Source: a bacterium
Lineage (GTDB): Bacteria; UBA9089; CG2-30-40-21; SBAY01
Direction of reading: 5' to 3'
NCBI GenBank assembly: GCA_040757115.1
Contig: JBFLYA010000080.1
Coordinates: 1-16,147 of the forward strand
Length of the DNA: 16,147 bases
Part shown: positions 1,453 through 14,740 of the stretch, in pieces
Layout: each line of letters opens with the position of its first letter
Position numbering within the stretch: the first letter of the stretch is position 1
Position numbers and translations under genes: made by a program
Notes under the pieces: model-generated
Databases searched by the model: none
What the model was told of the DNA's origin: nothing
What the model saw: the letters and a program-made list of their open reading frames with translations, nothing else

Positions 1453-1857
1453 TCAAGATGTCATCTTTTGTTCTTTTATATATCCTTCAATTCTTTCTAC
1501 ATACTTTTCTGCGTTCTTTATTTGATGTTCTGCCTGTTCCTTTGTTGCTATAAAAAAATCATCATAATCACTATCGTTTCTTATTTCTTCGGCTTCTCTT
1601 AACATCTTTGAATACTCCATTTCAATTTTCCCTGTCTTCACATAATATTGATTGAAATAAGAGATTATTCCTGAATGTTTGCTACTGTCAAACCTATCAA
1701 AAGACAATAGAGCCCTGGTTATGTGAAACATAGCATAGTAAGAACGATTTATCGACTGCGCAAATTTACCGTTATCAAAATTTATTTTTGCCGTCTCTAA
1801 ATCTCCTTTTGCTTTTTCAATCCGATAGATGGCTAAATCTTTTTCAGTTCCGTTCAT
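1453..1857 (-). CDS. HEPN-domain protein, probable toxin of an MNT/HEPN pair
   Basis: A small (134 aa), all-helical HEPN-domain protein. The pattern NRSYYAMFHITRALL (37-51), KHSG (60-63) and a late EEIRNDSDY (91-98) is typical of the HEPN family paired with minimal nucleotidyltransferases. The classical RNase motif (Arg, 4-6 residues, His) is not evident after Arg93; an Asp-Tyr occupies that region, as in many members of this subgroup. The start at 1857 is preferred over 1884 because GGGAG lies about 8 nt upstream. With this start it overlaps the upstream MNT gene by 14 bp, which implies translational coupling. In known pairs the HEPN protein is a ribonuclease toxin that the MNT partner neutralises by nucleotidylation or binding. 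That activity is inferred here, not seen. Confidence 0.82.
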   Translation of the reverse strand: MNGTEKDLAIYRIEKAKGDLETAKINFDNGKFAQSINRSYYAMFHITRALLSFDRFDSSKHSGIISYFNQYYVKTGKIEMEYSKMLREAEEIRNDSDYDDFFIATKEQAEHQIKNAEKYVERIEGYIKEQKMTS

Positions 1858-2206
1858 AAATAATAACTCCCTGGTTGGAAACATTTTTATAAAAAGGTAA
1901 TATATCTAAATATTTGTTGTAATTTTGATAATTCTTTTTTATTACAGAGATAATAATTCCATATTCCAGTTCTAAATCAAAAATAGCATTTGTAACCACT
2001 CCATAGCATTTACTCAATTCCTCATTGTTCAGATCAACCAAAGCCATAATATCAATATCTGATTGGCTATTATAATCACCTCTTGCATGAGAGCCAAATA
2101 AGATAACACTTTTCAACCTATTTTTAAATATATTTTCCAGTCTTTTCCTTACTTCTAAAACTATTTTTAAAACACTTTCACTTTTTATAGTTGAAATATC
2201 TTTCAT
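1844..2206 (-). CDS. Minimal nucleotidyltransferase (MNT), probable antitoxin
   Basis: A 120-aa nucleotidyltransferase of the polymerase-beta superfamily. The signature GSHARGDYNSQSDIDIM (about 38-54) carries the GS motif and the two metal-binding Asp residues of DID, so the active site looks intact. The size fits the minimal family (about 100-140 aa), which lacks a palm extension or substrate domain. It is the first gene of a two-gene unit with the HEPN gene, which begins before this one ends. The ATG at 2206 has a moderate GGTGAT site upstream. In characterised MNT/HEPN modules this enzyme transfers AMP to the HEPN toxin. The third catalytic carboxylate is probably the Asp or Glu in IFDLELEYG, by family analogy. 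Confidence 0.85.
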   Translation of the reverse strand: MKDISTIKSESVLKIVLEVRKRLENIFKNRLKSVILFGSHARGDYNSQSDIDIMALVDLNNEELSKCYGVVTNAIFDLELEYGIIISVIKKNYQNYNKYLDILPFYKNVSNQGVIIYERN

Positions 2207-3220: not shown

Positions 3221-4393
3221 TTAAAATAAGCTCTCTTCAAATCCCTTACCCTCGGTTATAAAAGACAATTTAAAGATATTAGCAATAGTTGCGGAGATAT
3301 CTGCAAAAGAATTCCTTATGCCAAGATTAACCCCTTTTTTAACTTTGGAGCCGTAACCTATTAAAGGAACATATTCTCGTGAATGGTCTGTGCTTTTAGT
3401 TGTTGGGTCACAACCATGGTCAGCGGTTAAAATTAAAATATCTCCTTCATAAAGAGCGTCTAAAATTTCAGGTAGTCGTTTATCAAAATCTTGTAGTGCC
3501 TTGGCATAACCCCAAATATCATTTCGATGGCCGTAGACCATATCAAAATCAATCAGATTAGTAAAAATTAATCCTTTACTTTTACTCCGCATAGCCTTAA
3601 TTGTTTTATCAATTCCATCTAAATTGTTCTCTATGTGAAAAGAGGTGGTAATCCCTGAACCAGCAAATATATCATTTATCTTACCAATAGCAGTAACACT
3701 AAAGCCTCCTTCCGTAAGAGCATTCAGGATAGTTGGTCGAAAGGGAGCAATAGAATAATCTTTTCGCAGATGATTAATTCTCTTAAACTCTCCTACTTTA
3801 CCTCCAAACGGTCGAGCTATCACTCTATTAACAGCATGTTCACCTACTAAAATCTTCCGTGCTATTTCACAAAACCTGTATAATTCCTCAATCGAAATAA
3901 TATCTACATGAGTAGCTATCTGGAAGACGCTATCTGCTGAGGTATAAACTATTGGAAAACCAGTCTCTAAATGTTGCTTCCCTAATTCTTTTATAATCTC
4001 AGTTCCAGAAACAGGTTTATTGCCCAAGATATCCCTCCCGATAGCTTCTTTAAATGGTCTAATTATCTCCTCAGGGAAACCCATTGGATACAGAGGAAAA
4101 GGCTTTTTTAGAACAAGCCCCGCTATCTCCCAATGTCCGGTGGTAGTATCCTTACCCACGGACTTTTCAATCATTTTACCAATAGCTGCTGCTGGAGTTA
4201 GTACTGGCTTTACTCCTTTAATTTGACCAAGATTCCCTAATCCTAACTTAGCTAAATTAGGTAAGGAAAGTCCACCAACTGCGTTGGATAAGTTAACCAG
4301 GGTATTACTTCCTTCATCTCCATAATGCTTAGCATCGGGTAACTCTCCAATTCCTACACTATCTAAGACTATCAAAATAAAACGATTAATCAT
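3221..4393 (-). CDS. deoB: Phosphopentomutase
   Basis: Cytosolic phosphopentomutase, interconverting (deoxy)ribose 1-phosphate and 5-phosphate in nucleoside salvage. The 390-aa length is standard. It belongs to the alkaline-phosphatase superfamily, and the metal-binding set is visible: Asp11 ([10 protein letters not shown]), Asp284 and His289 ([11 protein letters not shown]), Asp325 and His326 ([10 protein letters not shown]) and His337 (DHSRE). The phosphate-accepting Thr lies in [10 protein letters not shown] (80-89), and the ribose-binding [11 protein letters not shown] is present (152-162). All key residues appear intact. The start [16 protein letters not shown] matches the family; the ribosome site is weak. 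It lies downstream of the nucleotide-signalling cluster in the same orientation, 147 bp after the dehydrogenase gene, and may be transcribed with it or separately. Its substrate links it to base or nucleoside turnover. Confidence 0.96.
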
Positions 4394-4539: not shown

Positions 4540-5244
4540 TTAACATATTCTATTAATAATAATCTCTGTTGCTATTGCGGAATCTTTTGTGATGACCATA
4601 TCTACTATTATCCTTGCTACATCATAAGGGTTCATGAACTTTGAAGTATCCACAGATAAACCACAATCTTCAGTCCAGAATGGTGTATTCATACCTCCAG
4701 GATAAACAGCGATTACTTTAATCGGGGTTCCTTTCGTTGCTGCTTGTATTGCTTCGGTATAACCTCGTGCACCCCATTTTGCAGCACAGTAAACTGACTC
4801 TTGTGGCTTACCCGTATGAGCAGCAGTTGACATAATATTTACAATAATGCCTCCTTTATCTTTCATCACTTTAAGGGCATAGGACGAAAGTAATATTGTA
4901 CCGACCAGATTAGCTTCGAAAACCTTATCAATCATTTCTTTCGAGACTGAGTCAGGATCGCCAAAGAGCCCCATTCCTGCAACATTGAATACCATATCAA
5001 CCTCAAAATTATTCTCTGTAATATATTGGAATAGTTTGCTTACATCATTCTCATTTCCTACATTTGCAATATAGCTATGCAATTGTGCTGAACTTGATAT
5101 TGAGGAAAGTTTAGAGATAGCCCTGTTGAGCTTTGAATCCAATCTTGAAGTAATACAGACATTATACCCATTTTCAAGTAAACATTTAGCAATCTCGTAA
5201 CCCAGTCCTGAAGAACCACCGGTAACCAATGCTATCTTGTGCAT
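4540..5244 (-). CDS. Short-chain dehydrogenase/reductase (SDR)
   Basis: A classical SDR of 234 aa that binds NAD(P) through TGGSSGLG (residues 8-15). The NVAG motif (a variant of NNAG, about 87-90), the Ser in NIMSTAA (about 140) and the catalytic Tyr/Lys pair in YCAAK (about 152-156) are all present. PGGMNTPFW is the usual segment after the active site. The substrate is not predictable; SDRs act on sugars, fatty acyls, steroids and many others. The start is supported by GGGGAG eight bases upstream. It is the last gene of the cluster that begins at 12363 and follows the cyclase gene after 38 bp, so co-transcription is likely. Its link to the signalling genes is by position only. Confidence 0.88.
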   Translation of the reverse strand: MHKIALVTGGSSGLGYEIAKCLLENGYNVCITSRLDSKLNRAISKLSSISSSAQLHSYIANVGNENDVSKLFQYITENNFEVDMVFNVAGMGLFGDPDSVSKEMIDKVFEANLVGTILLSSYALKVMKDKGGIIVNIMSTAAHTGKPQESVYCAAKWGARGYTEAIQAATKGTPIKVIAVYPGGMNTPFWTEDCGLSVDTSKFMNPYDVARIIVDMVITKDSAIATEIIINRIC

Positions 5245-5282
5245 AATAATCTCCCCTTTTGGAGAATTTTCTTCTCTCTATT

Positions 5283-6467
5283 CTATAAACTGCCAATAGG
5301 AGTGGATAAATTTTGCAGATGCTTTAACCCCTCTCTATATGCCTGATACTGCGGTGTAGGTTGTTGTGTTACCCATGTATAATCAAAAGCTGGGCATACC
5401 CTTATGTCAGCATCCCAGATATATGGGCTGATGTGGATACGTCCCCCCGGTTCATCCCAGTCCCAATATGAGGCGAAGTAGAACGGGCGATCATACTCCC
5501 GGAAATCAAGACTCCGGACATGACCGTTCAGAACCTTACGCAGATTTTTTATTGCCGTTTGCTTGTCCCGGAGAAGCTTCTCGTGCCCCCTTTCTTTCGT
5601 TTCCATCCATTGCAAAATATTATCCTTGAGGAAAAAGATGTCTATCCGTTCCCAGTTCTTGGACGGATTATTTCTCAATACCTTTACAATAATGTTGGCC
5701 AACTGGTCGTTGGTAGCGCCTACAAATGCTAATTTGTTATGTTTATTAAGGAGTTCTTCGGGAGGAATCTTTTTATCTTTCCAGCCGTATTTGTCTACAG
5801 ACAGAATCGGCGGTTCAATTTGCAGATGCCACTTGTTTGCAGGTGCACCGGACTTCCCAAAAGGATATTCTCTGCCATCCCGGATTATCCTTCCGGTCAC
5901 ATTTTTGACCGTTATAATCTCGTTATGTTTAGCAATCACCTCATATTCCTCAGGCTCAATCTGATATTTAAAGTCGTTGTGCTTACTCTGGTCATCTGGA
6001 TCCAGACGTTGGGTGAATTCTTTATGGCGAACCAACAGTTGTCCAGGCTCGGCGGCGTCCATGATGCGCTGAGCTACATTAATGGCTGCTCCGCAAACAT
6101 TCGTCTGGTCGTATGGGTCCTTAACCAGGTCAAGTTCACCCTGATTGATTCCGCATCGTATACCTATCTTTGGGTCGTGTGTATTTGCCCATACCATCAT
6201 ACTTCCAGCCAACCACAGAGCGGTGTGCTCTCGCTGGGGATGAGCATCAGCCTTCTTCCACAGGACCACCACAGCACCGTCTCCAGTGGGCAAAAGACAG
6301 TATCGGCTGTCGTCCGAGCGATCGGGCGGTACTCCCCATAGGTAGACCAGTAAGGTTTTTAACTTTTCAAAGAATGATCTGGCGATAGATAATTGAACCG
6401 GATCCCAATTCATCGAGAACGCGGCCAAATCGACGAAGAGGATGGTTCCGGTACGTTCGTCATTCAT
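5283..6467 (-). CDS. Class III nucleotide cyclase with C-terminal PLD-like domain
   Basis: The N-terminal 155 residues form a class III nucleotidyl cyclase domain. Metal-binding Asp13 (LFVDLAAFS) and Asp63 (LPTGDGAVVV) and the transition-state pair Asn130/Arg134 (AAINVAQR) are present, so it should be catalytically competent. The positions that read the base in adenylyl cyclases (Lys and Asp) are Leu59 and Asn123 here, and they do not match the guanylyl pair either, so the product may be an unusual cyclic nucleotide. After a linker, residues about 243-385 (LAFVGATN, IDIFFL, RPFYFASYWDW, RIHISPYIWDADIR) look like the PLD-like or DUF5919-like domain of the membrane protein encoded at 8419-9483. 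There is no membrane segment. The start has GGAGG seven bases upstream. The gene is clearly richer in GC than the radical SAM gene beside it. Pycsar cyclases are the closest known analogy. That is inference. Confidence 0.85.
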   Translation of the reverse strand: MNDERTGTILFVDLAAFSMNWDPVQLSIARSFFEKLKTLLVYLWGVPPDRSDDSRYCLLPTGDGAVVVLWKKADAHPQREHTALWLAGSMMVWANTHDPKIGIRCGINQGELDLVKDPYDQTNVCGAAINVAQRIMDAAEPGQLLVRHKEFTQRLDPDDQSKHNDFKYQIEPEEYEVIAKHNEIITVKNVTGRIIRDGREYPFGKSGAPANKWHLQIEPPILSVDKYGWKDKKIPPEELLNKHNKLAFVGATNDQLANIIVKVLRNNPSKNWERIDIFFLKDNILQWMETKERGHEKLLRDKQTAIKNLRKVLNGHVRSLDFREYDRPFYFASYWDWDEPGGRIHISPYIWDADIRVCPAFDYTWVTQQPTPQYQAYREGLKHLQNLSTPIGSL

Positions 6468-6538
6468 GAGTAATCCTCCCTATGAAAATATCTGAATCAA
6501 AGATAGTCAATTCAAAGCCCCCATAGTTTCTCTGAATT

Positions 6539-7309
6539 TTATTCTATTGGACTTTCAAAAAAATTTACATTTATCTGTCCATACTTTATATGAGCTTGAT
6601 TATCGCAAACTTTACAAGGGTCATATAAATCACGGCGACCTTCTATAAGATTTTGTCTCATTTTATTAAAAGTATCTGAGAACCATACTTCTTTTATGCT
6701 TTTATCTTTAATATTACCAAATCTATTTATTCTTCTTGCATCTTCATAACATAATAAAATATCGCCATTATATGCTATAACGAGTCGGTGTCGAGGAACA
6801 AAGCATGGCAGATTTAATGTTTTGATACAACCTAATACCCCGCCTTTGTTATTAATATGAAAATTTTCAAGTACAGTTTGAAAAGGACGAAGTGGAAATT
6901 CTTTTTTGGAATGATTTGAGATTACAATTAGAGTTACTCCTGATTCTACTAATTTATTATATTTTGATTCAGTTAATTTATCACCATTTGTATATAATAT
7001 ACGTTCAGCTCTGGGGTGGAGTTTTTCAGTCGCATATTTTATTATCCATTCTATTTGAGGATGGAGTAAAGGTTCACTATAAAAATGAAAAGAAAGTCGT
7101 CCTGAAAAACCGAGTTCTTTTAACTCATCAATTATCTTTGTGTAAAGATTATCATCCATCAGTTGAGGTGGATCAATTGGATCAATTATCGAATTAGGAC
7201 AGTATGAACAATAGCTTCCAGAAAGATCTTTCATATTACACGCGGTATTAATTTCTATTTCAACCCTGCTAAAAATATCTGGAATTTTAGAAGAATAATT
7301 CTCAATCAT
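6539..7309 (-). CDS. Radical SAM protein with SPASM-like C-terminus
   Basis: A 256-aa radical SAM enzyme. The cluster-binding cysteines are spaced C-x9-C-x2-C (Cys24, Cys34, Cys37 in ACNMKDLSGSYCSYC), not the common C-x3-C-x2-C; Elp3 is one known family with this wider spacing. LSFHFYSEPLLHP (72-84) stands at the SAM-binding GGEP position. The C-terminal part (178-240: YNGDILLCYED, RFGNIKDKSIKEVW, CKVC) is a SPASM or twitch-like module with Cys187, Cys232 and Cys235, which may bind an auxiliary cluster. The start codon overlaps the SLOG-fusion stop as ATGA, with GGAG eight bases upstream, so the two proteins are probably made in step. SPASM enzymes often modify peptides, but small-molecule substrates are also known. 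No precursor peptide is evident. The gene is very AT-rich. Confidence 0.85.
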   Translation of the reverse strand: MIENYSSKIPDIFSRVEIEINTACNMKDLSGSYCSYCPNSIIDPIDPPQLMDDNLYTKIIDELKELGFSGRLSFHFYSEPLLHPQIEWIIKYATEKLHPRAERILYTNGDKLTESKYNKLVESGVTLIVISNHSKKEFPLRPFQTVLENFHINNKGGVLGCIKTLNLPCFVPRHRLVIAYNGDILLCYEDARRINRFGNIKDKSIKEVWFSDTFNKMRQNLIEGRRDLYDPCKVCDNQAHIKYGQINVNFFESPIE

Positions 7310-8358
7310 TTATATAACTCCATAATAGCTTTAACCAAATTTTCTTTTAATTCCGTTAAGTTTGACAATTCATATTTTATTTGAATATTATTAGCTATGT
7401 CAGATGCTGATTCTCCCGGAGATTGATTTATCAACACCGTTTTTTTGCCTAAGCCAATACCCATGCCATATTCGTAGAGGACATTGGGGTTATTACCTGT
7501 TAAATCTACAATTAAAAGTGAAGCTTCAGAGATACATTGGGATAATGAACTGTCAATTTTACCCGAACGGAGTACGTCGTGTCGTTTACATTGATACTTT
7601 GCCGGCAAGTTATAAATACTATTAGTAAAAATTTCCATAATAGAAGAATATACTTCATCGAATTTTTTACTAAAAGGCATAATTATAAATACTTTATTAT
7701 TAGTTATTGGTATAGGGGTGCAACGATACTTATTCTTTTTCTTAGCCAACTCAATTGCAATATCGACTGCTATTTTCCCTATTTGCTGTTGGTTAGAAAT
7801 GAGGTTTAGTTTGTCCAAGTCCTCAATTTTTTTTGAAATAAAATTGCTTTTATAAAAACAATATGGAGGAGACGGATCGTCAAATCTTGACCTTATGAGA
7901 TTCCAACATTCAAGGCTGGAACCACCTGTAGGCCAAATTGGAATAACTGGCGTTCCAACATTTAAACAAGATTCTATCTCTGCTCCCGTACCCTTGCCTC
8001 CTTCTATTGTTATTAGAGAATCTATCAAAGAGGCCATAAAAGGTCGTCTTTCAGGTCTCGTTTTACCCTGACAGACAAATTTATTACCTTGAGCTATGGT
8101 TGTAAATTTTTGACCTGGAATTTTATCATCTGGAAGTATAGAAATGATCCTGTGCTGTTGTTCTATTGTATCGCTTAAAGAATCAGCCGCCTTTTGAGCA
8201 CAATACTGAGTTAATCCACCTGCGCACCCGCCGCTAACAAGTCTATGACCTCTTTTCATTATTTCTTCACCGAGTGTTTCTGCTAATATCTGATATTTAA
8301 TAGATTTCTCTCGATCACTTGTACCTGCAAAGCCAATAAAATAACCATTTATTATCAT
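7306..8358 (-). CDS. SLOG/LOG-like domain fused to a deoxyribosyltransferase/TIR-like domain
   Basis: A 350-aa two-domain cytosolic protein. Residues about 1-205 form a Rossmann-like SLOG domain (the DprA/LOG superfamily), with GFAGTSDR (9-16), VSGGCAGGLTQ (41-51) and EGGKGTGAEIE (119-129), the last being the counterpart of the LOG PGGxGTxxE motif with its Glu retained. Residues about 222-350 form a nucleoside deoxyribosyltransferase/TIR-like domain: VFIIMPFSKKFDEVY (223-237), CKRHD, then LLIVDLTGNNPNVLYEYG (281-298) with the likely catalytic Glu296. Such domains bind or cleave N-glycosidic nucleotides and serve as sensors or effectors in nucleotide-based immunity. The start has AGGAGGAG upstream. 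It is coupled to the radical SAM gene by a 4-nt overlap. The ligand and direction of action are unknown. Confidence 0.85.
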   Translation of the reverse strand: MIINGYFIGFAGTSDREKSIKYQILAETLGEEIMKRGHRLVSGGCAGGLTQYCAQKAADSLSDTIEQQHRIISILPDDKIPGQKFTTIAQGNKFVCQGKTRPERRPFMASLIDSLITIEGGKGTGAEIESCLNVGTPVIPIWPTGGSSLECWNLIRSRFDDPSPPYCFYKSNFISKKIEDLDKLNLISNQQQIGKIAVDIAIELAKKKNKYRCTPIPITNNKVFIIMPFSKKFDEVYSSIMEIFTNSIYNLPAKYQCKRHDVLRSGKIDSSLSQCISEASLLIVDLTGNNPNVLYEYGMGIGLGKKTVLINQSPGESASDIANNIQIKYELSNLTELKENLVKAIMELYK

Positions 8359-8418
8359 AAAAATCTCCTCCTTTTTAATAACCTCTCTCTTATGTAGTCA
8401 TGATTATAACGCCAGAGT

Positions 8419-9483
8419 TCAGCCGTCCCGTTCCAGCGGGGTAGGCTGCAGCGAGTCGTCATCCATTGCAGACTCTGGTTCTTTAGGGATAGTAGGAGGC
8501 CAGTCTCCTTCTTTAAAACGATTCTCAATCTTGGCAAAGTCAATTTCTAGCAGACTACGTAGCATGTCTTTATCTTTATACTTACTATCAAGTCTTACTG
8601 TCTTTTCACTGCGCCAAGGCTCCTCAAAATGATTAGCTCTGAATTTCTTAAAAATAGAATTTGGATCTTCTGTATCTTCTATTATTAGGGTGAAGTTGTC
8701 GTATACAGGACCGTGTAGAGTGCTAGCGTTTACCAACATTGCTCTACTTGTAAAGATGGCATATGCCGTTATTACACCTGGATACAAACGGATATTCTTC
8801 CGGTCGAGTAGGCCCCCCTTGGGGCTTTCCTGAGACTCTACGGATTTACCATCGAGGATATCTTTTGCAAGATACTTGAGTGTGCGTTGAATATCTCTAG
8901 CTACAGCAGCCCGTTCACGATTCTCTACTCTCTCTCTAAATTCTCCATAAGCTGGGTGCATTAGCAATGCTCTAATCCTAACATTATTTTCAAGTTTATG
9001 TTTGAGTAAGTGGTACAGTTGTTTCTTTTCTTCGCTTTCCTCTGCTGGGTCAAGTGAACCAAGAAGAGAAGTTCCAACAAAATCAATTGATTTATCTTCT
9101 CGCTCAAGCTCGCTCCGGAATTTTTGCATAGCTGAGGAACGATTGGCAAAAACACCTATTACACCAGCTTCATAAAATATTTGTATTTGCCGAAGTTTTT
9201 CTACAGCAACATCAAGATCACTTATCGGCTTTTGTAACGCCCTTGCAGCTTCTTTGCTGACCCCTTTTTGAATAAATCCCACGATAATATTCCCTATTGC
9301 AGTTACAGCAAGGGCAGCTAAGAACGACAGGATGGGTGTGCGATAATTCCCAATAGGAATTTCTGGTGGAACTATCGCAAAGAACACAAAGCCAAGAAGC
9401 AACAAAATACCCGAAACAATTAGAAAGACGTACTCTATTGGCAACTGAGTTCCGCCTCTTTGAATTCCATTTTCTTTTTTCAT
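8419..9483 (-). CDS. Two-helix membrane protein with PLD-like cytoplasmic domain
   Basis: The 354-aa product starts with a polar tail and two hydrophobic helices (about 16-38 and 49-71) forming a hairpin anchor, then a short coiled-coil-like linker (76-105). A soluble domain follows with the pattern YEAGVIGVFANRSSAMQKF (104-122), IDFVGTSLLGSL (133-144), VRIRALLMHP (168-177), NIRLYPG (230-236) and FTSRAMLVN (244-252). This resembles phospholipase D-like or DUF5919-like folds but lacks the HKD catalytic signature, so a binding role is more likely. The charged C-terminal tail is proline-rich. The ATG at 9483 is preferred over the GTG at 9486 because GGGAGG then lies seven bases upstream. The same domain type seems to end the cyclase of this cluster. 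It could be a membrane effector or sensor; this is inference. Confidence 0.72.
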   Translation of the reverse strand: MKKENGIQRGGTQLPIEYVFLIVSGILLLLGFVFFAIVPPEIPIGNYRTPILSFLAALAVTAIGNIIVGFIQKGVSKEAARALQKPISDLDVAVEKLRQIQIFYEAGVIGVFANRSSAMQKFRSELEREDKSIDFVGTSLLGSLDPAEESEEKKQLYHLLKHKLENNVRIRALLMHPAYGEFRERVENRERAAVARDIQRTLKYLAKDILDGKSVESQESPKGGLLDRKNIRLYPGVITAYAIFTSRAMLVNASTLHGPVYDNFTLIIEDTEDPNSIFKKFRANHFEEPWRSEKTVRLDSKYKDKDMLRSLLEIDFAKIENRFKEGDWPPTIPKEPESAMDDDSLQPTPLERDG

Positions 9484-9529
9484 CACTTAACCTCCCTATT
9501 TATAATGGATAGCAAATTTATCCATCCCA

Positions 9530-11494
9530 TCATATTTTCAAATTAATTAGCGATTGTTGGTAATCTTTAATCTCACCTTTATCCTTTCCTTCAATGTAGT
9601 ATCTAATCAATGCGTCTGTGCCGGAGGCGCGGATAAGAAACCAGAAGTCATCGAACTCCATGTATGTTCCCTCCAATAGCTTGCCCTCGCCTACGAGGCA
9701 GACCCGCTTCGGTTTAGGTATAGCCCTGTCCGCATCAGTCAGCCTTGAGTTAATCTCGTCGTGTATCTCGTCCAGAGATTTTCCGGCTGATGCTTGTTCG
9801 GCCAGTTTCTTGAAAAAATTCATGATTCTGTCTCTGGTTTGTTCTCCATCAGATTTAGCTTTTTGTAGGTCAGCTCCGGTCAGGCTTTCATCGTATAGCC
9901 TTATATCTCTGCGGTCAAAAAATCTGTTCTGTATGTTATACTTCTCTATCAAGCTGGAGTAGTAATTCGCGAATGACTGATTCGAATTGTATAAATGAGC
10001 TGCCAGTGATAATGCCATCAGACCGAACTGCATGCCATCCTTCTCGCGAAGTGCTATCAGGCCTTTTGAGCCGCTTTCGTTCATGAGTAACTCTATTCCG
10101 CCGAAGACGGCACCACCAGACTCTTCGCACATAATCAAGGCTCGTGGCTTCTCGCCTATGTAAATCTTGTCCCCGATGGCGTTGATGAAGGGTTCATTAG
10201 AGTCAGTGCGATTTTCGAGCCATTCGGAGAAGGTACCCATATATTTAAAACCTACGCGGACATGGGCAACCGGTATATTTTCCTGTGCGGCGAGTTCGCT
10301 AATCGAACGGGAAGTAGAAATAGAAGGGGTAATGAACCAATTGAAAACATTGAGCAATCCAGCCTCCTTCAGAACGCTAATCCGGTAAGCAGTCAGCATA
10401 AAAAAGAGCTGGTTGGGCGAAAAATAGACAATGGACTTATCTCTACCGGGATACAAATCAACCTTAAGGCCAAGTATCTCAGCCTGTTTGGCTTGTTCCG
10501 CAGAGGTTATGGTAACAATATTGAACCTATCGCCGTCCGGATCCCAGATGAAAACAATATCTGCCTTGCCATTAAGCAATATCTCCTGGGCGCCAATGTT
10601 CTTGTAGACCTCCTGCTTGCTGGGGTCAGGTCCGAAATGCTTCCCGTCTTTCTCGCCAAGTTGATGGTATTGTGAATCCTCTTCTCCAAAGAGATATTGA
10701 ATGATGCCATCCTGACCTATGGAGATGTCAAGCATCGGGAACAAACGTTCGGTAGTAGCCTTCATTGAACCGCCAACTGTACAAATTGTACATCGGAACC
10801 CTTTTTCTTTAGCTCGCTTAATATCATCTTTGGATTTGTCAACAATTACTGATTGTTGGTACTTTATATAAGCCTGGTCAACATTGAAATCATAAATAAT
10901 CTTCTCTTTTAATCCCCATGGCGCAAGGCTTATTTTTTCCCGGTTGTTGACAATATTCCTTACCTCAGAGATAATTTCTTTTTCTTCTGTGAGGAGCTGT
11001 TTGCCGGCTGAGTCCATAGGCTTCCATCCCCCTTTAAAAAAAGGCGAATGACTGGCGGTAAGGTTATCCCCACTTTGATATTCCTTATAAAAGGTTCCAA
11101 AAGAAGAATACCAGATTGGGGTTGTTTTAATATCTGCTCTAAGATGTACTTTTATATTGTGAGCGGCATACACTCGGGACAGAAGAGCGATGAAATCCTG
11201 GGTATGCGGTCGTGTTTCTCCTCCAATGTGCACTTGTCCCTGTTCAAAAGGTGCAAGTTTTCGTTTAAAGACTCTGGCTTTGGCTTCACCCAAAATAGCA
11301 ATTGTAAGCGAATTAAATGCAACCTCTGGATCATTAGCGTCTTTTGGGTTTAATTGGTCCCGGTAGCCTGCGGTCATTAAGGAAAACTCCTCTGCCCATT
11401 TCTCAAGAGAATATGAGGCAACTATTTCTTCAGAGAGTACGATTTCTTGCCACTCTTTTCCATAGGGGTTAATTTCAAGCCTTTTTGAACTCAT
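9530..11494 (-). CDS. Divergent alpha-D-phosphohexomutase (phosphoglucomutase-like)
   Basis: A 654-aa cytosolic member of the alpha-D-phosphohexomutase superfamily, which moves phosphate between C1 and C6 of hexoses. All four active-site loops are recognisable: the phosphoserine loop LTASHSPFFKGGWK (Ser148, with HSP replacing the usual HNP), the metal loop WDPDGDRF (Asp318, Asp320, Asp322), the sugar loop CEESGG (456-461) and the phosphate loop RASGTDALIRYY (622-633). The N-terminal GTSGxR is replaced by LMTAGYRDQLNP (39-50). At 654 aa it is about 100-200 residues longer than typical enzymes, with extra sequence between the loops and before the C-terminal domain. GGAGG lies upstream of the ATG. 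It follows the HAD phosphomannomutase after only 20 bp and precedes the membrane protein. The substrate may be an unusual sugar or a ribose phosphate. Confidence 0.85.
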   Translation of the reverse strand: MSSKRLEINPYGKEWQEIVLSEEIVASYSLEKWAEEFSLMTAGYRDQLNPKDANDPEVAFNSLTIAILGEAKARVFKRKLAPFEQGQVHIGGETRPHTQDFIALLSRVYAAHNIKVHLRADIKTTPIWYSSFGTFYKEYQSGDNLTASHSPFFKGGWKPMDSAGKQLLTEEKEIISEVRNIVNNREKISLAPWGLKEKIIYDFNVDQAYIKYQQSVIVDKSKDDIKRAKEKGFRCTICTVGGSMKATTERLFPMLDISIGQDGIIQYLFGEEDSQYHQLGEKDGKHFGPDPSKQEVYKNIGAQEILLNGKADIVFIWDPDGDRFNIVTITSAEQAKQAEILGLKVDLYPGRDKSIVYFSPNQLFFMLTAYRISVLKEAGLLNVFNWFITPSISTSRSISELAAQENIPVAHVRVGFKYMGTFSEWLENRTDSNEPFINAIGDKIYIGEKPRALIMCEESGGAVFGGIELLMNESGSKGLIALREKDGMQFGLMALSLAAHLYNSNQSFANYYSSLIEKYNIQNRFFDRRDIRLYDESLTGADLQKAKSDGEQTRDRIMNFFKKLAEQASAGKSLDEIHDEINSRLTDADRAIPKPKRVCLVGEGKLLEGTYMEFDDFWFLIRASGTDALIRYYIEGKDKGEIKDYQQSLINLKI

Positions 11495-11514
11495 TATCTT
11501 CCTCCAAAAAAAAA

Positions 11515-12363
11515 TTAATCTATGAATTTAAGTTCATGAAGTTTATCTATCGTTTCGCGCCAGGAACTTATTTGAATCGCTTCTACTGGACATCTGGACT
11601 CTGAAGGCCATGCTTTAATAAACTCATTGATAGCCGCATCGTTTCCACCTTCAAACAAGGCGTCACCCATGAACACAACTCTTTGGAAGCCTTTTTTCAA
11701 TAATGTGCGTATTGGTTTGGTTTTATCTTCACCAACTATACCTATATCAAAAGATGTTTGGCCACCAAAGGTAATTTTTAGCTGTTTTTCATTTATCAAG
11801 GAGGACAACTCCTGATTAAGATGTTCTAAAACTTTTTTTCTGTAATCATTTGCTCGATCGAACGCTACGAAATTATCTCTGTTGTTTTTACCCTCTGTGT
11901 CCTCCTGCTCCATTCTGCCAATAGGGCATAGGTTTATCATTGATACTCTATCGACTATTCTTCCATCGCGTATCTTTAGCGAAGGTGGTAAGCGAAATTT
12001 TTCCATTTCTAAAGTTTCGGTCAATCTCTTTAATAAGTAATTATAATTGGCCTCGCCAAGATACTTCCTGAGGTTGAACTCTGAAACCAATTTGATTGAC
12101 ATCTCCTTAGAATAATCGCACTGATAATGCATAGCGCCGTTACTGAGAAAGGCGTCAAATTGTTTGCGAAAGCCGAGAGCATAAAGTGGTCTAAAAAACT
12201 GCTCTTGTAAAAGCGAGAGGTGACTCCCAGCGGCTACGAAAAAAGGAACGCGTAATCGGCCCAACACCTTCACCATTGATCTGGTAATCGGCTGACGGGG
12301 AGGCGTAAGAGTACTATCAATATCGAAGACTAAAACCGTTTTCATTATTTTTTGAGATATCAT
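11515..12363 (-). CDS. Eukaryotic-type phosphomannomutase, HAD superfamily
   Basis: The 282-aa protein matches the HAD-fold phosphomannomutases of eukaryotes (PMM1/PMM2), not the bacterial alpha-phosphohexomutases. Evidence is VFDIDSTLTPPRQPIT (12-27, with nucleophile Asp14 and general-acid Asp16), GS at 46-47 and EQ at 54-55, IRDGRIVDRVSMINLCPIGR (131-150) aligning with the NGMLNVSPIGR sugar-binding loop, GGQTSFDIG (200-208), and MGDALFEGGNDAAI (232-245), the metal-binding motif. The family converts mannose 6-phosphate to mannose 1-phosphate; some members also act on glucose 1,6-bisphosphate as phosphatases. It is the first gene of the cluster, downstream of a strong promoter. The ATG at 12363 has only a weak AAAGAAAG site and a hairpin just upstream. 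The family is uncommon in bacteria, so horizontal transfer is plausible. Confidence 0.85.
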   Translation of the reverse strand: MISQKIMKTVLVFDIDSTLTPPRQPITRSMVKVLGRLRVPFFVAAGSHLSLLQEQFFRPLYALGFRKQFDAFLSNGAMHYQCDYSKEMSIKLVSEFNLRKYLGEANYNYLLKRLTETLEMEKFRLPPSLKIRDGRIVDRVSMINLCPIGRMEQEDTEGKNNRDNFVAFDRANDYRKKVLEHLNQELSSLINEKQLKITFGGQTSFDIGIVGEDKTKPIRTLLKKGFQRVVFMGDALFEGGNDAAINEFIKAWPSESRCPVEAIQISSWRETIDKLHELKFID

Positions 12364-12579: not shown

Positions 12580-12609
12580 ATTCTACAACATCCCTATCCA
12601 TTTTGTCAA
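12580..12609 (-). promoter_or_regulatory. Sigma70-like promoter of the seven-gene cluster
   Basis: On the minus strand a perfect -35 TTGACA (12604-12609) is followed 18 bp later by TAGAAT (12580-12585), one mismatch from TATAAT. Transcription would begin near 12573, leaving a leader of about 210 nt before the HAD gene. No other equally good promoter was seen at the gaps inside the cluster, which are 71 bp or less. Confidence 0.6.
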
Positions 12610-12686: not shown

Positions 12687-14111
12687 TTAAGTTCCTTTAA
12701 TAAATTTACTGCCCGACTCAAGCATCTTCTCTAACTTATGGTTATTATTTGTTTCAGCATAACATCTTATCACAGGCTCTGTTTGGGAAGCTCTTAGCGT
12801 TACCCAACTGCCGTCTTCAAGGATAAATTTATTTTCTGAGACAACTCTTTTTACAGCAATACCTGCAAATTCAGTTGGTGGATTATTTGTTAATTTCATT
12901 AAAAACAACTCTCTTTCTTTGTCTGTTACATAAAGACTCATCTTTTTATAAAAAAATGTACCAAATTCTGCGTAAAGTTCTTGCAAAATTTTACTTAAAG
13001 GTTTTTTTTCTACCGCCACCATTTCTGCCATCAAAAGGCAGCCTAAAATTCCATCCTTTTCCGGGATATGACCTTTAACCGCCATTCCACCGCTTTCTTC
13101 TCCTCCAATAATTGCCCCTTCCTGTATGGCTTCTCCTATATATTTAAATCCAATGGAGGTTTCAATAAGAGAGCAGTGGTATTTCTTACAGATAGCATCA
13201 ACAAGATGCGTAACAGTTATAGTTTTGGCGACTTTGCCTTTCCATCCCTTTGTTTTTAAAAGATAGAAAAGAATCAGAGCAAAAACCTTATTGGGGTCAA
13301 GATAAATTCCTTTTTCATCAACAACTCCAAATCTATCCGCATCTCCATCCGTAGCCAGTCCCAGGTGAGCAGAGTTTTTGACTACAAGCTCAGCCGTATC
13401 TTTCAATGTTACTTCAGAAGGATCAGGCGGGCTACCTCCAAAAAGCGGGTCCATTTTTGTATTCAAGGCTATGCACTCACATCCTATCTCCTTAAAGATT
13501 CTCTCTAAATAGCCACATGCTGTACCATGCATAGGGTTGATTACTACCTTCAAATTAGCTTTTTTAAACAGATCGATATCAACCAGGGACTTCAGATATT
13601 TCAGATAGTCCTCCATTGGATCAATGAGACAAATTGATTTAGCCTCGATGCCTTGTTCATAAGAAATCTCTTTCACCTTTTTAAGAGGGAGAGAAAGGAA
13701 GCGTTCTTTAATCTCTTTATTAATAAGTGCGTATTTCCATCCCCCTTTTAGGGTGGAAAAACATTTCATTCCACTATACTCAGGAGGATTATGTGAAGCA
13801 GTAATATTAACACCACCACCGCTTTCTCTTTTTAACAATTCATAGGCAATAACAGGCGTAGGGGTTGGTCGATTAGTCATCCATACCTTAAGGCCATTTC
13901 CCGCTAATACAGAAGCCACTATTTGGGCAAACTTATCTGATAAGAATCTACTGTCGTAGCCAATCACCACGTCTCTTTTGATTTTCGTTCTTTCCTTAAT
14001 GTAATCAGCTATAGCTTGAGCTAATATTCTAACGCTATCAAAAGTAAAGCCATCACCGATTATTGTTCGCCAGCCATGGCTTTCATGCCATTGACCTCTT
14101 ATTTGATTCAA
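12687..14111 (-). CDS. Phosphoglucomutase/phosphomannomutase family protein
   Basis: A 474-aa alpha-D-phosphohexomutase of the bacterial COG1109 type. The catalytic loop NITASHNPPEYSGMK (102-116, Ser106), metal loop ATDGDADRFG (253-262), sugar loop GGEESGG (336-342) and phosphate loop RASQTEPVIRCYAE (440-453) are intact, so it should interconvert hexose 1- and 6-phosphates, supplying nucleotide-sugar synthesis. The N-terminus is odd: the usual FGTSGWR motif reads QWHESHGWR. The start is a TTG at 14109-14111, supported by AAGGAGA seven bases upstream; no nearby ATG fits. It is the third hexose-phosphate mutase within 5 kb, but it is separated from the other two by a 323-bp gap with its own promoter. 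It could be transcribed with the Uma2 gene 74 bp upstream. Confidence 0.9.
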   Translation of the reverse strand: MNQIRGQWHESHGWRTIIGDGFTFDSVRILAQAIADYIKERTKIKRDVVIGYDSRFLSDKFAQIVASVLAGNGLKVWMTNRPTPTPVIAYELLKRESGGGVNITASHNPPEYSGMKCFSTLKGGWKYALINKEIKERFLSLPLKKVKEISYEQGIEAKSICLIDPMEDYLKYLKSLVDIDLFKKANLKVVINPMHGTACGYLERIFKEIGCECIALNTKMDPLFGGSPPDPSEVTLKDTAELVVKNSAHLGLATDGDADRFGVVDEKGIYLDPNKVFALILFYLLKTKGWKGKVAKTITVTHLVDAICKKYHCSLIETSIGFKYIGEAIQEGAIIGGEESGGMAVKGHIPEKDGILGCLLMAEMVAVEKKPLSKILQELYAEFGTFFYKKMSLYVTDKERELFLMKLTNNPPTEFAGIAVKRVVSENKFILEDGSWVTLRASQTEPVIRCYAETNNNHKLEKMLESGSKFIKGT

Positions 14112-14185: not shown

Positions 14186-14740
14186 TTAAAATATCTCTTT
14201 TAGATTAAAGTTTAGCCCTTTGATTAACTTTGATTTAACCACATCCCCTATTTTATAAATGCCCGTATCTTCATAGAACTTGCCGGTATGAGAAAATATC
14301 TGGAGTGTCTTTTTATCTGCATCGACTATCCAGTATTCTTGAACCCGATAGGTCTCATAAAGTCTCTTTTTTAATAGTTTATCCAAATTTTGGGTATAAG
14401 GAGAGGTGATTTCGATAATTAAATCAGGTACACCTTCTATACACTTATCTGTAATGATAGACATCTTTTCCTTAGAGATAAAAAATATATCTGGTTGAAC
14501 CACATTTTCATCTGATAAAACAACATCACAAGGGGCATAAAATACTTCCCCTAAATTACCCCTGGTAACAAATTCATCAATAATTTTACCAAGTTTTCTA
14601 ATAATCCTTTGATGATACGGAACTGGTGCTGGACTCATATAAACCTTCCCCTGAATTATTTGATACCTTTTCCCATTATCGGGAAACTGGACATAATCTT
14701 GATATGTCCAGTTTTCTTCCTCTGTGGCTACTGTTGACAT
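14186..14740 (-). CDS. Uma2-family PD-(D/E)xK nuclease-fold protein
   Basis: A 184-aa Uma2 (DUF820) protein with the restriction-endonuclease-like fold. Characteristic segments are WTYQDYVQFPDNGKRYQIIQ (11-30, including the RYEIIDG-type motif), SPAPVPYHQ (36-44), VVQPDIFFIS (80-89, metal-binding Asp84), GVPDLIIEITSP (103-114, Glu110) and the closing KLLKKRLYETY...EYWIVD. The family is expanded in cyanobacteria and some candidate phyla, and its biological role is unsettled; many copies occur singly near mobile DNA. The start has GGGAGG upstream. A TTGACA-N17-TAAGAT promoter lies about 190 bp upstream, and a 12-bp hairpin sits in the leader. Confidence 0.9.
   Translation of the reverse strand: MSTVATEEENWTYQDYVQFPDNGKRYQIIQGKVYMSPAPVPYHQRIIRKLGKIIDEFVTRGNLGEVFYAPCDVVLSDENVVQPDIFFISKEKMSIITDKCIEGVPDLIIEITSPYTQNLDKLLKKRLYETYRVQEYWIVDADKKTLQIFSHTGKFYEDTGIYKIGDVVKSKLIKGLNFNLKEIF

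Follow-up and report, generated by a model that had tools for sequence, protein, structure and literature searches.

A cluster of seven genes on a bacterial contig is read here, with a probability of about one half, as a divergent member of a rare and undescribed family of conflict operons of the abortive-infection type, in which an effector with a PLD-like domain would be governed by the sugar-phosphate product of two enzymes, a HAD-family phosphomannomutase-type protein (HAD) and a divergent phosphohexomutase (PHM). The cluster lies at positions 4540-12363 of the stretch of DNA analyzed (GenBank JBFLYA010000080.1, 16,147 nucleotides, hereafter the window), which is the entire contig C80 of an assembly in 462 contigs with a completeness of 99.87% and a contamination of 1.41%. 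All main genes of the window are on the minus strand, and those of the cluster follow one another in transcription order as HAD, PHM, membrane protein, SLOG protein, radical SAM enzyme, nucleotide cyclase and short-chain dehydrogenase/reductase (SDR). The original prediction, made from the letters alone, described seven co-oriented genes separated by 71 bp or less with a single 4-nt overlap, and the open reading frames (ORFs) bear this out, with gaps in transcription order of 20, 43, 60, -4, 71 and 38 bp.

The proposal that the sugar-phosphate mutases belong with conflict-type effectors has found comparative support, since members of this HAD-PHM subfamily elsewhere have as neighbors effectors carrying the PLD-like domain of the window's membrane protein. 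When 84,980 species genomes were scanned, 62 loci were returned; the query was chimeric, combining four PHM patterns with one cyclase and one HAD pattern, and samples the PHM well and the cyclase poorly. The nearest of these loci carry a HAD gene directly upstream of the PHM gene (55-62% identity), and whole-genome HAD searches added three more loci (L095, L178 and L180) as well as a lone HAD locus (L186). In a PHM tree of 62 rows, the HAD-paired forms make up a single clade of 10 with support of 100/100 that includes the window PHM, which is sister to that of L017 (95/86), while L014 is sister to L178 (99/97). A PLD-like effector is present at four of the eight clade loci with usable flanks (the window, L017, L095 and L178) and at none of the 52 PHM loci outside the clade, an enrichment whose one-sided Fisher p of 1.4e-4 ignores phylogenetic relatedness and unequal flank lengths and is indicative only. 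Loci with HAD, PHM and effector come from genomes of apparently at least three phyla. The broader idea of a neighborhood conserved among all PHM relatives was rejected, as only the HAD-paired clade has one. Together, these observations leave the association between HAD, PHM and the PLD-like effector fairly well supported.

The proposed effector of the window is a membrane protein (8419-9486, minus strand) in which hydropathy, profile and hhalign analyses recognize two N-terminal transmembrane segments (hydrophobic residues 12-47 and 50-74) followed by the PLD-like domain, a label read from a motif pattern with no Pfam match behind the name. The C-terminal domains of the TIR proteins of L178 and L095 and of the two-helix protein of L017 align together, and a profile built from these three, leaving the window out, matches the window protein at 8.2e-5, the next best match among six-frame translations of the PHM loci being 0.51. 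An hhalign control with about 590 ORFs gave a score of 41 for the window protein, as against 24 for the best unrelated ORF and no more than 20.6 for shuffled sequences. The same domain is thus fused either to two transmembrane helices, as in the window and L017, or to a TIR domain, as in L095 and L178, whose proteins have none of the N-terminal hydrophobic segments common to the other two. The exchange of effector modules is known from CBASS and Pycsar (PMC11224242, PMC10952713), and the attachment of either a TIR or a two-helix module to a single receptor-like domain matches it, which is why a conflict operon gated by sugar-phosphate state is the reading favored here.

The tightest relative of the cluster is the operon at L178 (G447:C128:103-6206), in which six co-oriented genes encode HAD, PHM, a 2H phosphoesterase, an NAD-epimerase-like protein, a TIR/PLD fusion and a small membrane protein, with overlaps or gaps of at most 55 bp among the first five, including a 4-nt overlap between HAD and PHM. 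The phosphoesterase has the motifs HITL and HCTI and matches Pfam 2_5_RNA_ligase2 at 3.6e-4, and the TIR fusion matches TIR_2 at 0.0015. At the end of the operon (L178:103-519, minus strand), the small protein has three membrane segments and matches the PADLOC candidate PDC-M50A at 1.3e-52; it is possibly a second effector. L095 has the five other genes of L178, with the TIR fusion in convergent orientation. At L017, the contig ends at HAD and PHM, and the other strand carries genes for an epimerase-like protein, a two-helix protein and PfkB; L015 has a PfkB kinase like that of L017 (37%) ahead of HAD-PHM. In the epimerase-like proteins of L178 (1653-2642), L095 (6049-7032) and L017 (7270-8334), three out of three, phenylalanine replaces the catalytic tyrosine of the SDR motif YxxxK (PFALSK, PFAFSK and PFTFSK, against PYGCSK in active relatives), while the NAD-binding GGLGFIG and the catalytic lysine are kept, a pattern more in keeping with a sensing or regulatory role than with ordinary epimerase activity. 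L014, the sister of L178, has an intact HAD-PHM pair followed by 2H phosphoesterase and epimerase genes decayed to fragments (7050-7557, plus strand), indicating that the larger operon is old. Neither of these accessory genes was found in the window by tblastn with both L178 proteins, and the 2H gene is missing from L017 too.

The two enzymes at the head of the window cluster look catalytically competent. The first gene (11515-12363, minus strand) encodes a HAD-IIB phosphomannomutase-type enzyme of the PMM2 family (Pfam PMM, 3.4e-21; phosphomannomutase PDB 5ue7, 8.1e-20) with intact DxDxT, DKT and GDxxxEGGND motifs that are invariant across seven relatives at 49-63% identity. The PHM that follows (9530-11494, minus strand) has all four Pfam domains, PGM_PMM I-IV, and intact TASHSP, WDPDGDR, CEESGG and RASGTDA motifs, aligned with six relatives at 54-65%. 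Since these catalytic motifs are kept, as they are in PMM2-type phosphomannomutases and alpha-D-phosphohexomutases, the pair likely carries out a sugar-phosphate reaction. What sets the window-type PHM apart from other alpha-D-phosphohexomutases is its length of 654 aa, a clade of its own, the presence of a HAD gene wherever the flank is visible, and effector partners at four loci. At least 80 IMG/VR viral contigs (L096-L175) encode PMM-type HAD proteins with 23-33% identity to the window HAD; alignment showed only generic PMM-type HADs among them, none above 33%, and the viral contigs yielded no relatives of the PHM, cyclase, SLOG or membrane proteins. Plasmids searched with the cyclase, the membrane protein, the TIR-PLD fusion and the 2H phosphoesterase likewise yielded no relatives, save for a phage structural gene matched by chance.

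Could the HAD-PHM pair instead be an ordinary sugar-phosphate pair, perhaps acting on mannose- or glucosamine-phosphate, next to which defense genes (PLD effectors, SLOG/TIR proteins, the cyclase) gather by chance, as in a defense island? This is the main rival explanation and, on balance, an unlikely one. It draws on several of the observations that weigh against a dedicated conflict operon. Four of the eight HAD-PHM loci (L014, L015, L018 and L180) lack a PLD effector, so the pair also exists independently of one, and in L014 it has stayed while the accessory genes decayed. Base composition is a mosaic along the cluster, with G+C content at third codon positions running from 0.16 in the radical SAM gene through 0.26 (SLOG), 0.34 (membrane protein) and 0.46 (PHM) to 0.50 in the cyclase, a spread that suggests piecemeal assembly from several sources. 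Toxin-antitoxin-like genes lie near the window cluster, and L014 has an ORF that we read as AbiEii-like. On the same side of the balance, the sample of loci is small, the effectors of L017 and L095 are on the strand opposite to the PHM, the full seven-gene set is known only once, in the window, the ligand of the PLD-like domain is not readable from sequence, and AlphaFold models of the cyclase and the membrane protein were unusable (pLDDT 39). Chance gathering, however, does not sit well with the recurrence, in what appear to be different phyla, of one homologous domain accompanied by the same 2H and epimerase-like genes, nor with the lack of any PLD-like effector at the 52 other PHM loci.

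The original prediction proposed looking for the same neighbors in other genomes, and the outcome was divided: the three-gene core of HAD, PHM and PLD effector recurs, whereas the set of seven was seen in no other genome searched. Orthologues of the PHM and the cyclase were absent from the other 18 genomes of the phylum. Searches for the cyclase in 36 genomes that contain relatives of the HAD or the PHM, and in 395 genomes of G022's phylum, gave partial matches to the cyclase domain and no full-length orthologue, and the membrane, SLOG and cyclase proteins, searched together in 37 genomes, gave matches to the cyclase and nucleoside-deoxyribosyltransferase (NDT) domains only. Across the other genomes searched, none of the cyclase, SLOG and radical SAM genes co-occurs with HAD-PHM. 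The window is a divergent variant of the HAD-PHM family; its SLOG/NDT, radical SAM, cyclase and SDR genes have no demonstrated link elsewhere, differ in base composition, and may form a second arm or simply be passengers. No described system combining these genes turned up in the open-access literature searched.

The cyclase gene (5283-6467, minus strand) encodes a class III nucleotide cyclase domain at about residues 1-160, recognized by a profile match to solved class III cyclases, and some 200 further residues. The protein alone reaches only 0.086 in Pfam, below the cut-off, while a profile with five relatives matches 3mr7 at 1.4e-11; D13, D63, N130 and R134, the metal-binding aspartates and the transition-state asparagine and arginine, are invariant in the alignment with those relatives. 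The C-terminal part of about 200 residues had no matches, and the idea that it is another PLD-like domain was rejected on an hhalign score at noise level. Within its own family, the window protein has cyclase-domain relatives only in genome G006, where two loci (L005 and L006) have GINxAQRxMD cyclase-like domains at the front of very long STAND-type NTPase-looking proteins. The SLOG protein (7306-8358, minus strand) joins a SLOG domain with the motif GGKGTGAE (Pfam LDcluster4, SLOG cluster 4, 6.2e-7; NCBIfam TIGR00725, 1.6e-9) to an NDT/TIR-like domain, and matches the PADLOC CBASS-type profile 'Effector/TIR' at 5.1e-7.

These genes invite comparison with known nucleotide-signaling defenses, and above all with Pycsar (PycC with PycTM or PycTIR), which the window resembles in its combination of a class III cyclase with membrane and TIR-like proteins and in the proposed abortive-infection logic. 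The window cyclase, with its metal and transition-state residues in place, is accompanied by membrane and TIR-like genes, as in Pycsar (PMC11224242), so the cyclase, membrane and SLOG/TIR-like proteins might be a working system of their own, with a nucleotide messenger and membrane and nucleotide-cleaving effectors, and the sugar enzymes bystanders. Of the explanations considered, this is the least probable. Pfam finds no cyclic-nucleotide-binding domain, such as the receptor has in PycTIR, in any protein of the cluster, including the membrane and SLOG proteins, and membership in Pycsar fails for lack of it; PADLOC gives no match to a Pycsar protein. The recurring core of HAD, PHM and PLD effector, moreover, does without the cyclase: L017, L095 and L178 keep PLD effectors with none in the locus, and a search of the L017 genome gave no cyclase match. 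The earlier suggestion of a cyclase-made messenger sensed by the SLOG or PLD-like domains receives no comparative support, as the searches gave neither a full-length cyclase orthologue nor co-occurrence with HAD-PHM elsewhere. With the effector modules of CBASS and Thoeris the cluster shares SLOG and TIR-type domains, but no CD-NTase (cGAS/DncV-like) is present in it, no SIR2 or ThsB-type gene was identified, and the conserved partners are sugar-phosphate mutases.

The strongest single identification in the cluster is that of the radical SAM protein (6539-7309, minus strand), a radical SAM/twitch-SPASM dehydrogenase homologous over nearly its full length to BtrN (PDB 4m7t/4m7s, E 5.5e-40; SPASM, 1.4e-14), the 2-deoxy-scyllo-inosamine dehydrogenase of butirosin biosynthesis (PMC9012708). 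It had been listed among enzymes that match no known system; as a homologue of BtrN-type alcohol dehydrogenases, it is no novelty of this system. Fold-level homology and the four auxiliary-cluster cysteines are kept, but the position of BtrN Arg152 is occupied by lysine, the radical SAM motif CNMKDLSGSYCSYC is CX9CX2C in place of CX3CX2C, and the window has no 2-deoxystreptamine genes. The best plasmid homologue (36%; L090:9004-9711), on plasmid pHS1 of Sodalis praecaptivus, adjoins genes for a 2-deoxy-scyllo-inosose synthase, a PIG-L deacetylase and a glycosyltransferase, an aminocyclitol-type cluster. Judging from the homology to BtrN and from these neighbors, the window protein probably oxidizes a sugar or cyclitol hydroxyl. 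The last gene of the cluster encodes an SDR with the catalytic motif YCAAK (4540-5244, minus strand; Pfam adh_short, 3.8e-42). The BtrN homology and the company kept by the plasmid relative open a biosynthetic explanation, by which a hexose phosphate from HAD and PHM would be oxidized toward a sugar or aminocyclitol by the BtrN-like dehydrogenase and the SDR, with the cyclase and SLOG proteins as regulators. That this is so seems quite improbable, as no 2-deoxy-scyllo-inosose synthase, aminotransferase, glycosyltransferase or transporter is among the window genes identified, the lysine and the stretched cluster motif depart from BtrN, and the PLD-TIR and PLD-membrane associations of the relatives are left unexplained.

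Around the cluster, a promoter-like site (TTGACA-18-TAGAAT, 12580-12609, minus strand) lies 5' of the HAD gene and matches the consensus at 11 of 12 positions. It had been taken for a single strong promoter, but the region holds 35 such sites against 26.7 +/- 5.6 in shuffles, a chance level at which the match is not evidence. A third mutase-like gene, of the GlmM type (12687-14111), is upstream of the cluster and not part of it, and further upstream is a putative nuclease of the Uma2 family (14186-14740, minus strand; PADLOC candidate PDC-S03, 3.3e-44). On the 3' side of the HAD-PHM block lies a phosphopentomutase-like (DeoB) gene (3221-4393, minus strand); a DeoB-like gene is found too in the Acidobacteriota-group locus L180 (1-486, minus strand), 18 bp past the PHM, and may point to the metabolism of pentose or nucleoside phosphates. 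Further along, a HEPN gene (Pfam, 5.2e-22) overlaps by 41 nt with a gene for an MNT-type nucleotidyltransferase (1453-2206, minus strand) in a toxin-antitoxin-like pair; the small MNT-like gene (1844-2206) matches PADLOC PDC-S09 and encodes a separate protein of the toxin-antitoxin type. The HEPN/MNT pair and the Uma2 nuclease that flank the cluster are counted in favor of the conflict-operon reading.

How might such an operon work? From gene content and motifs, we infer a defense role, a ligand, a direction of signaling and some co-operation of the last four genes. HAD and PHM would produce a hexose mono- or bisphosphate or convert one form into another, and the PLD-like domain would read this compound, or its failure to form once sugar or nucleotide metabolism has been upset by a phage or another parasite. 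The attached module would then stop the cell, the two-helix form by permeabilizing the membrane or the TIR form by cleaving NAD+. In the relatives, the 2H phosphoesterase and the epimerase-like protein without its catalytic tyrosine might clear the ligand or detect it; in the window, the BtrN-like dehydrogenase and the SDR might modify the sugar instead, with the cyclase and the SLOG/NDT protein as a second, nucleotide-signaling arm.

To our knowledge, the signal-based immune systems of bacteria have until now centered on nucleotide messengers. A bolder version, more doubtful than the chance gathering of defense genes considered above, is that of an immune operon that signals by a sugar phosphate or a derivative of it, and not by a nucleotide: the HAD phosphomannomutase and PHM would set the level of a hexose (bis)phosphate, a PLD-like receptor would read it and so release the TIR or membrane effector, and a sensor and an off-switch would be provided in the relatives by the disabled epimerase and the 2H phosphoesterase, while in the window the radical SAM dehydrogenase would act as a modifier. 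The recurrent coupling of a phosphohexose mutase to a PLD/TIR or PLD/membrane effector would, if true, represent a new kind of input, sugar-phosphate sensing or signaling, for which the L178 operon offers a compact, six-gene test object.

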